Positions 3,429 through 12,576 of a stretch of 56,815 nt of DNA are shown here, piece after piece. The position numbers and the translations under genes were made by a program. Source of the stretch: Verrucomicrobiota bacterium (GTDB lineage Bacteria; Verrucomicrobiota; Kiritimatiellia; SS1-B-03-39; UBA6053); the NCBI GenBank assembly GCA_020831635.1, contig JAFIGC010000019.1, positions 1 through 56,815 of the forward strand. Reading direction: 5' to 3'. The notes beneath the pieces were generated by a model. The model was not told the DNA's origin, made no database searches, and was given only the letters and a program-made list of their open reading frames with translations. The first letter of the stretch is position 1; each line of letters begins with the position of its first letter.

Positions 3429-5009
3429 TCAGAGCAAAGTGCGCAGGGTGTCGAGGGTGTCCGCCGCCTGTGGTGATTTGTCGGCTTGCAGACGACGTAC
3501 CCGGGGCGAGCGGACGGCGATGCCGGATTTGTGGCGTTTGGAGGGCCAAAGGGCGTCGAAGGCGACTTCTCCGACCCATTCCGGTTTCACCACCCGAACC
3601 GGGCCGTGTTTTTCGAGGGTGTTTTCCCGTACGAAGGCGTCCACTTGCTTGGTTTCGCTTTCGCTGAGTTCCGAGATGCATTTGGCAAAGGTCACGAGTT
3701 CCTCCCCTTCCCAAAGGGCAAAGGTGTAATGGACGAAGGCGTCGGCTTGGTTTCCCTCCCCGGCCTGGGCGTAAATCAAAACCGCGTCGAGGGTGTGCGG
3801 GGGGGCGGTCCATTTCCACCAATCTCCGGGGAGGCGTCCCTCGCGGTAAGGGGAGTCGAGGCGTTTGAGCATCAACCCGGTGGCACCGCGTTGGCGGGAT
3901 TGGGCCAGAAGGGGCTCCAACTCCGGCCAAGTCTCGAAATTCAAGGGTTCCGAGACTCGGAAGTGGTGGCACTCATCGATTCCGAACATCGGAACCACAT
4001 GGCTCACTCTCGAATACAGGGGCATTTCCCGGATATCGACCCCTTGGATCTCCATGCAGTCGAGGGCGAGGAACGCCACCGGAATTTCGCGCTGCAATTT
4101 GGGGCTTGGGTTGCGTTTTTGTATGCGGCTTTGCAGATCGCCGAAGGGAAGGGGACGCTCCTCTCGCCAGGCGAGGACCACGCCGTCCAATACGGTGCCG
4201 TCGGGCAACTCTTCGGCTTCGCGGAGGATCTCCGGGAAGGCGTCGGTGATCAGTTCCTCGTCGCGAGACCAGAGCAGGGTTTCGCCGCCGCGTCGGATCA
4301 ATTGGGCGCGGATCCCGTCCCAGATCCATTCCATCTGCCATTCGTAGGGATTGCCGAGGGACGAAAGGTGCTTGGTCAGGGGCATGGCCAGAAAGAAGGG
4401 GTAGGGGGGTTTGAGGGGCGCTTCCGGGTTGTCGGTGGCCAGCCTATTTTGGAAGGCGGTTGGGGTGGGGATTTCGTCGTCCATGAGCCGGTGCTCCACC
4501 AAGGCTGGGTCCAAACCGGCGAATTCCGCCAACGCTTTCGAGGTCAGCCCCCGGCCCACGTCCATGCGCAAGCCGCCGAGGATGATTTTGTTTATCAGCA
4601 GCCGCTCCGTGCGGGTGCTGGCGTCCCAGAGGGCAAAAATCGACGTCCGTTGCGCCTCCGTTTCCGCGTCCCGCAGGGGGAGGAGATGTTCTTCAAACAA
4701 TGAATGGAAAGAGATGTCCAAGCCCGTCCCTTGCCCGGGCCACAACAGGGCCAAGGTTTCGGCCAAATCGCCGGTTTCCGTATGACAGGCCTCCAGCAGC
4801 CAAGGGGGCAGATCCAATTTTTCCGAGACCCATTCGCGCAGGATTCGGGAGGGGACCAGGCGCGGCATGTGACCCCCTTTGAGGAGGTGCACCGTCCAGG
4901 CCGCATCCGCGGGCGGGGTTTCGGCAAAATAACGTTTCAAGGCTTCCACCTTTTCCGACGCGTCACGCGCTTGGTCCAGGGTTTCGAAAAGGGTGGCGAA
5001 GGATTTCAT
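3429..5009 (-). CDS. ATP-dependent DNA ligase homologue with degenerate active site
   Basis: The 526-residue protein aligns by eye along its whole length with the roughly 530-residue bacterial ATP-dependent DNA ligases of the LigB type. It has an N-terminal DNA-binding domain (1-200), an adenylation domain (about 201-410) and an OB domain ending in KRHKSGIAVRSPRVRRLQAD. The catalytic motifs are altered. Motif I reads EWIWDGIR, with Ile229 where the nucleotidylated Lys should be. Motif III reads LDGVVLAW, with Val277 for Glu. Motif IV reads ATGLMLK, with Thr377 for Glu. Motif V reads WWKWT, with Thr401 for Lys. The reading frame is open throughout, so this is not ordinary pseudogene decay. The intact NAD-dependent ligase lies 1.3 kb away. 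A non-catalytic DNA-binding role is possible but unproven. Confidence 0.85.
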   Translation of the reverse strand: MKSFATLFETLDQARDASEKVEALKRYFAETPPADAAWTVHLLKGGHMPRLVPSRILREWVSEKLDLPPWLLEACHTETGDLAETLALLWPGQGTGLDISFHSLFEEHLLPLRDAETEAQRTSIFALWDASTRTERLLINKIILGGLRMDVGRGLTSKALAEFAGLDPALVEHRLMDDEIPTPTAFQNRLATDNPEAPLKPPYPFFLAMPLTKHLSSLGNPYEWQMEWIWDGIRAQLIRRGGETLLWSRDEELITDAFPEILREAEELPDGTVLDGVVLAWREERPLPFGDLQSRIQKRNPSPKLQREIPVAFLALDCMEIQGVDIREMPLYSRVSHVVPMFGIDECHHFRVSEPLNFETWPELEPLLAQSRQRGATGLMLKRLDSPYREGRLPGDWWKWTAPPHTLDAVLIYAQAGEGNQADAFVHYTFALWEGEELVTFAKCISELSESETKQVDAFVRENTLEKHGPVRVVKPEWVGEVAFDALWPSKRHKSGIAVRSPRVRRLQADKSPQAADTLDTLRTLL

Positions 5010-5091
5010 GTGGGGCAGGATAGGCGGATTCTTCGGATTGTCAAAGTCAGGGCTTCAGCAGGATCATGCACCTTGAAGGAATTCGGAAAGG

Positions 5092-6282: not shown

Positions 6283-8355
<2,073 letters not shown>

Positions 8356-9200: not shown

Positions 9201-10085
9201 ATGTTACACCACGCCATCGAAAAAGCCGCCGTACTGATTGAAGCCATGCCGTATATCCAAGCCTTTCGCGGGGAAACGGTGGTGGTGAAATTCGGGGGCA
9301 GCATCATTAACGACGAAGCTTCTTATGCCGATATCCTGCGGGACGTGGCGTTTATGGAGATTATCGGCATGCGTCCGGTGATCGTGCATGGCGGGGGCAA
9401 AGCCATTACCCGGAAGATGGAGGAGGCGGGCATCGCCGCGAATTTTGTGAAAGGCCTGCGTGTCACGGACGCGGAGACGATCGCCATCGTGGAAAAAACC
9501 CTCAATGAAGAAGTGAATCCGCAAGTGCGCAAGGTGTTGGAAGGGTTCAATGCGCCCGCGACCGGATTCAGGGGGCAGGACGTGTTCCGGGTGTCGCGTC
9601 ATACTGAAACCGATCCCGAAACCGGGGAAGTCCTGGACTGGGGTTTTGTGGGCAATGTGGACAGCGCCGATGTCTCGGGAATTGTCGCGGCCCTGAACGC
9701 GGGCCGGGTCCCGGTGGTCACCCCCCTGGGCCGGGACAAAGACGGAAACATTTACAACATCAACGCCGACGAAGCCGCCGGTGCCATGGCCCGCGAACTC
9801 AAGGCCCGCAAACTCGTCTTTTTGTCCGATGTGCCGGGATTGATGCGCGATCCCAGTGACCCCAAAACCATCATCAGCACCTTGACCTTGGAGGAAATGG
9901 AGCGATTGATTGGGGACGGCACCATTGCCGGCGGCATGTTGCCGAAAGTGTCCGGCGCCGTAAAAGCCTTGAAGGCCGGCGTGCGGAAAACCCACATTAT
10001 TGACGCGGAAATGCCGCACTCCCTGTTGTTGGAATTGTTCACCGAACAGGGCGTGGGCACCGAAATTGTCGGAGATTTTTCATGA
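9201..10085 (+). CDS. argB: Acetylglutamate kinase
   Basis: The 294-residue protein phosphorylates N-acetyl-L-glutamate with ATP, the second step of arginine biosynthesis. The amino-acid kinase fold is clear: VVKFGGSIINDEASYADIL binds phosphate near residues 28-46, PVIVHGGGKAITRKMEEAGI binds acetylglutamate (about 60-79), and VPGLMRDPSDPKTII and GTIAGGMLPKVSGA follow towards the C-terminus. The length is typical. The ATG at 9201 follows the promoter directly, and the stop overlaps argD by ATGA, indicating translational coupling. The long N-terminal helix before the kinase fold resembles the arginine-inhibited type. Confidence 0.97.
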   Translation: MLHHAIEKAAVLIEAMPYIQAFRGETVVVKFGGSIINDEASYADILRDVAFMEIIGMRPVIVHGGGKAITRKMEEAGIAANFVKGLRVTDAETIAIVEKTLNEEVNPQVRKVLEGFNAPATGFRGQDVFRVSRHTETDPETGEVLDWGFVGNVDSADVSGIVAALNAGRVPVVTPLGRDKDGNIYNINADEAAGAMARELKARKLVFLSDVPGLMRDPSDPKTIISTLTLEEMERLIGDGTIAGGMLPKVSGAVKALKAGVRKTHIIDAEMPHSLLLELFTEQGVGTEIVGDFS

Positions 10086-11388
10086 ACGCCGATACTTCCC
10101 TGATATCCACCCAATCCACGACGCCGCCCCCGGCGCCCCCAAAAGAAGCGCCCCCGCCGAAAATCACCTTGGCGGAGCAGCTCGCGACCTTGCATCGGAC
10201 GCATCACACCCCGAACTATGCGCCCGGCCTCGCTTTGGTGAAAGGGAAGGGGGCCCATGTATGGGACGCCGCTGGAAAAAAATACCTCGATTTCGGGGCC
10301 GGCATTGCCGTGACCGGTCTCGGGCATTGTCATCCCAAACTCGTGAAAGCGGTTCGGAAGCAGTCCAAACGCATTTGGCACGTCTCCAACTTGTATTACA
10401 ACGACCAAGCGCCATTTCTGGCCCAAGAACTTTGCGAACTCGCGGAGTTGGGCGGCAAGGCGTTCTTCTGCAATTCCGGCGCCGAGGCCAACGAAGGTTT
10501 GATCAAACTCGCCCGGAAATGGGGGAGCGATGAAAACCGCTTTGAAATCATTACCATGCGGAATTCCTTTCATGGCCGCACCCTCGCCACCCTGACCGCC
10601 ACCGGGCAGGAGAAGGTCCAGTACGGCTTCGCGCCCCTGCCGGAAGGTTTTAAGTACGCCCAGTACAACGACATCGAATCGGTCAAGGCGCATCTCACCC
10701 CCAAAACCGCGGCGGTGATGCTCGAATTGGTGCAGGCCGAGGGCGGGGTGTTGCCCGCCGAATCGGAGTTCATCAAGAGCTTGGCCGCCCTTTGCGAGGA
10801 GCGGAATTTGTTGCTGATGGTGGACGAAATTCAAACCGGCATTGGCCGCACCGGGTCGATGTTCGCTTTTCAACAGTATGGCATCAAACCCGACGCGGTT
10901 TCCCTGGCCAAGGGACTCGGGGGCGGCTTTCCCGTGGGCGCGGTCCTGACCGGACCCCGTTTGCAGGACGTGTTCGGTCCCGGTTCCCACGGCACCACTT
11001 TCGGTGGACAACCCTTGGCCTGCGCCGTGGCCCGGGCGGTATTGAAAACCATTCGGGACAAACATCTCGAGAGCAATGCCGAAACCATGGGCTACCTGCT
11101 GCAAAACAAACTCAAACCCGTGGTCAAAAAGTACTCCTTCGTCCGCGCCGTACGGGGCAAAGGCCTCTTGTTGGGCATGGTCATCGACCGCCCCGCCAAG
11201 GATCTCGAAACCCTGCTCGCGCGCAAAGGGTTGCTGGCCATTTGCACCGCCGGCAATGTCATCCGCATGGTGCCGCCGCTCACCATCAACGCCCGGCAAG
11301 TCAAACGGGCCGTCAAAATCATCGAAAAAGCCTGCGCGGAATGGCAGGTCCAACTCACCCAATCCTCCAAAAACCAGGAAAAATCATC

Positions 11389-11392
<4 letters not shown>
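10082..11392 (+). CDS. argD: Acetylornithine aminotransferase
   Basis: This 436-residue class III PLP-dependent aminotransferase converts N-acetylglutamate semialdehyde to acetylornithine. Family relatives also act on the succinyl-DAP step of lysine synthesis, which fits the dap genes downstream. The phosphate-binding motif [15 protein letters not shown] is at 131-145, [12 protein letters not shown] at 247-258, and the PLP lysine is Lys277 in [13 protein letters not shown]. The N-terminus carries an extra roughly 28-residue Pro/Thr/Ser-rich extension ([15 protein letters not shown]) before the family start. It overlaps argB and argG by four bases each. Confidence 0.95.

Positions 11393-12576
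<1,184 letters not shown>

Follow-up and report, generated by a model that had tools for sequence, protein, structure and literature searches.

The gene at 3429..5009 (minus strand) of the window, by which we mean the whole 56,815-nucleotide stretch of DNA that was analysed, encodes a LigB-type DNA ligase homologue of 526 amino acids (MKSFATLF...LRTLL) that, judged from its sequence and those of its relatives, is very probably non-catalytic and under selection. In our best current model, suggested by fusions, operons and co-occurrence, the protein would act as a partner of the nuclease Exo; a structural role beside Exo, with sealing left to LigA, is the leading though still tentative reading of its function.

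The open frame of 526 residues, starting at an ATG, and the retained DNA-ligase architecture are both as originally predicted. The TIGR04120 model matches the protein end to end (residues 2-526) with 487.1 bits (cut-off 400), the NF006701 model matches it with 567 bits (cut-off 543), and its identity to LigB-type ligases of many phyla is 40-49%. Three domains were delimited approximately: a helical DNA-binding domain (DBD; residues 1-208, 4386..5009, minus strand; Pfam DNA_ligase_A_N, PF04675, at residues 2-161 and model helices at 2-190), a nucleotidyltransferase (NTase) domain (residues 209-405, 3795..4385, minus strand; DNA_ligase_A_M, PF01068, at residues 222-399) and an OB-fold domain (residues 406-526, 3432..3794, minus strand). 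The Pfam matches of the first two domains are above their cut-offs, and that of the OB domain (DNA_ligase_A_C, PF04679) falls just under (27.3 versus 27.5 bits). No second intact copy was found in this genome, the window gene being its sole PF01068 match; the remaining DNA ligase gene found is an intact NAD-dependent LigA (6283..8346, minus strand; an ORF with the EPKIDG motif, taken here as context only), which ends 1.27 kb from the window gene on the same strand, close to the 1.3 kb first given. Elsewhere in the window, inspection by eye picked out an ORF resembling a REP-associated tyrosine transposase (144-737), a probable PEP-CTERM sorted protein with the C-terminal sequence PEPGTLALVGLFGLTVYAFRKRK (2195-2965) and probable argB-argD-argG arginine biosynthesis genes in tandem (9201-12576).

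Catalytic residues and DNA-facing loops

Alignment with LigB-type ligases placed all four replaced residues of the original prediction in the catalytic columns that it had named. The motif I nucleophile lysine is Ile229 (ATC, 4323..4325), the motif III glutamate is Val277 (GTG, 4179..4181), the motif IV glutamate is Thr377 (ACC, 3879..3881) and the second motif V lysine is Thr401 (ACC, 3807..3809; all on the minus strand). Across columns 229/231/234/277/377/399/401 the window protein thus reads IDRVTKT. The reading is KDREEKK in 44 of 44 intact relatives from its own phylum, of which 14 are stand-alone proteins and the other 30 nuclease fusions, and likewise in 80 of 80 listed loci from other phyla. 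The latter set, of at least 80 intact relatives, came from an alignment-based scan of genome contigs with a pattern that overlapped two of the catalytic motifs and permitted I/H and T/S at those positions; the same scan with the window protein in place of the alignment gave no match. Given that KDREEKK is invariant in both sets, the catalytic-column changes are, on this alignment, far beyond chance. Measured against the codons that intact congeners use at these positions (AAA/AAG, GAG, GAG and AAA/AAG), K229I, E277V, E377T and K401T amount to 2, 1, 3 and 2 base changes, in line with the expectation that the Ile and Thr replacements took at least two substitutions each. D231, R234 and the other motif V lysine, K399, are retained, and K382 is present too.

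The protein has also changed well outside its active site. Of 155 columns with a conservation of 90% or more, 36 differ in the window protein, and 13 of these are invariant in 80 of 80 listed loci (G150, K229, G250, E277, E377, K401, R421, D427, A444, Y445, G447, F501 and R508). Losses in the loops of the DBD and the OB domain had been missed in the original prediction. The DBD loop at residues 144-153 (4551..4580, minus strand) reads LGGLRMDVGR, compared with TGGFRMGVAR in the intact congeners and a general intact form TGGFRxGV (here LGGLRMDV), and has thereby lost Gly150. The OB loop at residues 417-424 (3738..3761, minus strand) reads GEGNQADA in place of GHGRRAGL, and the OB element at residues 443-452 (3654..3683, minus strand) reads KCISELSESE in place of KAYSGLTDAE, so that the AKAYSGLTD of intact relatives has become AKCISELSE with the loss of A444, Y445 and G447. 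Net charge is likewise lower in all three domains (DBD/NTase/OB: -10/-8/-3 versus means of -3.8/-1.4/+3.4 in the 80 listed intact ligases), and the dead homologue of a second species, G002, follows the same acidic trend. The altered DBD and OB regions face DNA in ligase-DNA structures. In published ligase structures it is an electropositive face of the OB domain that closes on the DNA (PMC6035275). With these loops gone and the charge reduced throughout, normal DNA clamping has probably been lost along with the chemistry.

These losses bear directly on whether the protein might be a nick- or end-sensing DNA-binding protein that gave up chemistry and kept DNA clamping, a role put forward in the original prediction. 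A confidently predicted three-domain fold (pLDDT 90.5), matching DNA-bound human ligase 1 with a TM score of up to 0.79, and the presence of the DBD in most dead forms would suit such a sensor. However, the structure model leans towards the shape of an active ligase because its input alignment was made of active ligases, and the relatives in G007, G008 and G010 lack the very domain needed for DNA encirclement. Together with the missing DBD and OB loops and the lowered charge, this makes nick or end sensing unlikely, and the earlier suggestion is disfavoured.

An inactive sister gene under selection

A second species of the same genus, G002, carries a 77% identical homologue that is also dead, with H229, V277, T377 and S401 at the four columns. 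The V277 and T377 codons are identical in the window genome (G000) and G002, so inactivation most likely predates the split of the two species, and the entire divergence between them would then have accumulated after it. Sequencing or assembly error is ruled out by the inactivation common to the second species, which bears out the view, first taken from the window alone, that error was unlikely.

Over this divergence dN/dS is 0.256 (bootstrap 95% interval 0.196-0.323), with 0.230 for the DBD, 0.200 for the NTase domain and 0.432 (0.258-0.762) for the OB domain, and the upper bounds all lie below 1. No stops or frameshifts were found in the pair, although neutral simulation produced about 11 stop codons per lineage on average and not one of 1000 runs without a stop. 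The original proposal that the fold is under selection is thus upheld. Selection is weaker than in the intact congener pair (0.136 overall and 0.079 for the OB domain), which points to a partial release of the OB domain in particular. With its catalytic residues lost and its product under selection, the window gene would class as a pseudoenzyme gene on these comparisons.

A promoter-like sequence, TTGACA-N16-TATCCT, was matched at 5017..5044 (minus strand); its -35 box lies 35 nt before the ATG, a leaderless layout that places the predicted transcription start near the ATG. TTGACA occurs 34-35 nt upstream of the ATG in six of the six non-catalytic genes of the family, against a background of 2 of 1806 window ATGs with TTGACA at 35 nt. 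A good -10 box accompanies it in G000, G002 and G009 and is not clear in the three shortest forms.

Forms of loss in the family and the phylum

Two further congeners, G001 and G003, possess intact ligases with 58-59% identity to the window protein. The original prediction had held that intact close homologues combined with relaxed selection or read errors in this copy would make it simply a decaying gene; recent decay is rejected by the dead sister and by the selection acting on the pair. In another genus of the family, G007, G008 and G010 encode shorter proteins, some 230-240 residues long, that have no NTase domain and retain the latter half of the DBD plus the OB domain; dN/dS between G007 and G010 is 0.125. 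Among the shortened relatives, three have no Pfam match whatsoever. G009 shows another form, with a dead NTase domain and an OB domain kept and the DBD lost, and its gene sits on a very long branch. In trees built from DBD plus OB and from NTase plus OB, the dead genes of both genera fell into one group, weakly supported (71/87 and 93/100), and the alternative in which the dead congeners group with the intact ones was not rejected (p-AU 0.232 and 0.163).

Ligase catalysis was also lost in other families. In G380 the ligase is reduced to a DBD and an OB domain, the NTase domain being absent; depending on which start codon is chosen, its gene overlaps Exo or begins 28 nt downstream of it, and this form is the only one of its kind among the five genomes of the family; a small AAA_33 P-loop kinase-like gene (L102:5287-5814) lies downstream on the same strand. 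In yet another family, G307 and G244 encode Exo-ligase fusion proteins of 758-760 residues whose OB domain is gone and whose ligase halves read RDRTQTK and LDRTDSK at the catalytic columns; dN/dS of the dead half is about 0.14, with dS near saturation. G236 has Exo with the DBD only, whereas in its congeners G263 and G273 the fusion is complete and intact. By sequence, then, ligase catalysis has been lost next to a retained nuclease at least three times in the phylum.

Such a range of forms might be read as slow decay, in which the ligase became useless once LigA sufficed and passed through successive stages of erosion, from point mutations to domain loss. The roughly twofold higher dN/dS relative to the intact pair with its relaxed OB domain, the long branch of G009, the loss of different domains in different descendants and the solitary occurrence of the G380 form would all be expected in that case. 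What makes it improbable is that the frame has stayed intact, with every domain constrained, through a divergence that is wholly post-inactivation and in which about 11 stops per lineage were expected, that the shortened forms compared (G007 with G010, G307 with G244) are constrained as well, and that the -35 box is conserved.

The family genomes also share a gene order. Ligase, DUF420 protein and an EEP-family (Exo_endo_phos) hydrolase follow one another in G002 and in G007, G008 and G010, which suggests that these genes occupy the same ancestral locus. The EEP hydrolase (L054:5303-6789; also L065, L067 and L069) has a likely N-terminal membrane segment, and the DUF420 protein is a membrane protein. 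No dead ligase copy was found beside the EEP locus in the intact-ligase genomes G001, G003 and G005. A partner other than Exo, for instance this hydrolase together with the DUF420 protein, could account for the conserved order in G002 and three genomes of another genus; we consider it about as improbable as slow decay, since in G000 the gene pair lies on another contig without the ligase, none of the family's intact ligases lies at the EEP locus, and the independent lineages G380, G307 and G244 are linked to Exo instead.

Exo and the role of the ligase body

LigB belongs to the Lhr-Lig-Exo-Mpe DNA repair cluster, together with a helicase (Lhr), a nuclease of the MBL type (Exo) and a phosphoesterase (Mpe), a pathway of unknown function (PMC10140301). 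In G000 the MBL/beta-CASP nuclease, Exo (TIGR04122, 417 bits), is encoded at 4286-5269 of contig C73, separate from the window gene, and no member of the cluster adjoins the window gene. Within the family, Lhr (TIGR04121; best match 77.6 bits, cut-off 850) and Mpe (TIGR04123; best match 37.3 bits, cut-off 150) were not found above cut-off, so that Exo is the sole member of the cassette left. It occurs in every family genome with a ligase or a remnant of one and is missing from the one genome with neither. Across 388 genomes of the phylum, Exo exceeded the cut-off in 17, and all 17 carry a ligase-derived gene (13 intact, 1 dead and 3 domain-deleted); with G001, G002, G009 and G010 added, the count becomes 21 of 21, of which 14 are intact and 7 non-catalytic (G000, G002, G007, G008, G009, G010 and G380). 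TIGR04120 has no match in about 34 genomes whose Exo homologue is more distant, although G236, which is among them, keeps a fused DBD; Exo therefore does not always need the ligase. The nuclease itself is under strong selection, with a dN/dS of 0.12 between G000 and G002, and the metal-binding motifs HGHADH and SDHVDW are kept in both.

The intact ligase adjoins Exo in G004, G005, G036 and G199 and is fused to it in 30 genomes, and the two activities are normally coupled, as this frequent adjacency and fusion indicate. In G000 and G002, as in the intact congeners, Exo is at a distant locus, and the linkage within the window genus is accordingly one of co-occurrence only. Two further observations concern Exo genes elsewhere. 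G005 has two of them (L060 and L061), one beside the intact ligase and a lone one that groups with the Exo genes of G007-G010, a pattern that would fit the gain of an intact Exo-ligase pair. Free-standing distant Exo proteins (L261, L263, L264, L267, L270 and L259) have C-terminal tails, DQLELL, NQLELTF and NQMDLRLG among them, that resemble bacterial sliding-clamp-binding motifs, and a similar stretch opens the linker to the ligase in the fusions.

In the Exo-partner model, the former LigB-type ligase would form no covalent adenylate, activate no 5' phosphate and no longer clamp DNA normally, its folded body still being needed. This body would bind Exo and dock, position or restrain the nuclease at damaged DNA, the final nick would be sealed by LigA, the other ligase of the cell, and only the nuclease half of the Exo-ligase pair would still do chemistry here. 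The parts retained vary: G009 is without the DBD, G007, G008 and G010 are without the NTase domain, and G307 and G244 are without the OB domain. No single domain is thus kept universally. The clear relaxation of the OB domain (0.43 versus 0.08) counts against the model. The wider proposal is that LigB ligases turned several times, in three or more lineages of this phylum, into Exo subunits that neither catalyse nor clamp, with the nuclease controlled by the ligase body and sealing left to LigA; it is a shade more tentative than the model for the window protein.

The original prediction had also named regulation of the neighbouring LigA, and the protein might more broadly be an accessory factor of that enzyme. 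The proximity of LigA on the same strand and its standing as the remaining ligase of the genome favour that idea, but the adjacency is not conserved: the neighbours in G002 include the DUF420 protein and the EEP-family hydrolase, the shortened forms have no LigA next to them either, and no LigA was found beside dead or intact homologues in the other family genomes read. We regard this role as very unlikely; of the earlier interpretation as a whole, the selected non-catalytic homologue stands and the two roles proposed for it, at nicks or ends and on LigA, have lost ground. That the protein is still an active nucleotidyltransferase with relocated residues is the least credible reading. D231, R234, K382, K399 and the NTase fold do remain, and dN/dS is lower for the NTase domain than for the DBD or the OB domain; but neither the nucleophile nor the two motif glutamates survive, one motif V lysine is missing, residue 229 is not constant (Ile, His), and in relatives the entire NTase domain has been deleted.

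A literature search for a natural non-catalytic bacterial DNA ligase found no description within its coverage, outside which most subscription journals fall. Natural dead ligases would allow the chemical contribution of a ligase to be told apart from that of its protein body, and the model predicts that the ligase body does something independent of sealing for Exo or for its true partner. If true, there would be a bacterial class of pseudo-ligases in which a ligase body controls an MBL/beta-CASP repair nuclease. There is also a warning for annotation, as automatic pipelines would call the window protein a functional DNA ligase at the equivalog level.

Compared with LigB-type ligases (TIGR04120), the window protein has full-length homology across three domains but lacks the four catalytic residues and several DBD and OB loops, is not linked to Exo and comes from a family in which neither Lhr nor Mpe was found. 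Fusions of nuclease and ligase have been described in Opitutus terrae and Antarctic metagenomes, and the fused ligase module tested there is active (PMC10140301); the two components, Exo and LigB, are the same as here, and such fusions are intact in 30 genomes of the phylum and dead in G307 and G244, whereas the window protein is both separate and dead. In eukaryotic NHEJ, the MBL nuclease Artemis binds the DBD of DNA ligase IV (PMC4037875), which likewise pairs an MBL/beta-CASP nuclease with a three-domain ATP-dependent ligase; that ligase is active, and an interface shared with the Exo-pseudo-ligase pair would be purely by analogy. Lig4 or Dnl4 without catalytic activity can still help another ligase to join ends (PMC9638927, PMC3694833), and a dead ligase can thus promote repair while a second one seals. 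The Artemis and the Lig4/Dnl4 precedents make the subunit model plausible by analogy and do not prove it. The Lig4 and Dnl4 proteins are engineered point mutants that keep the rest of the ligase, whereas the window gene is natural and has lost DBD and OB loops as well.
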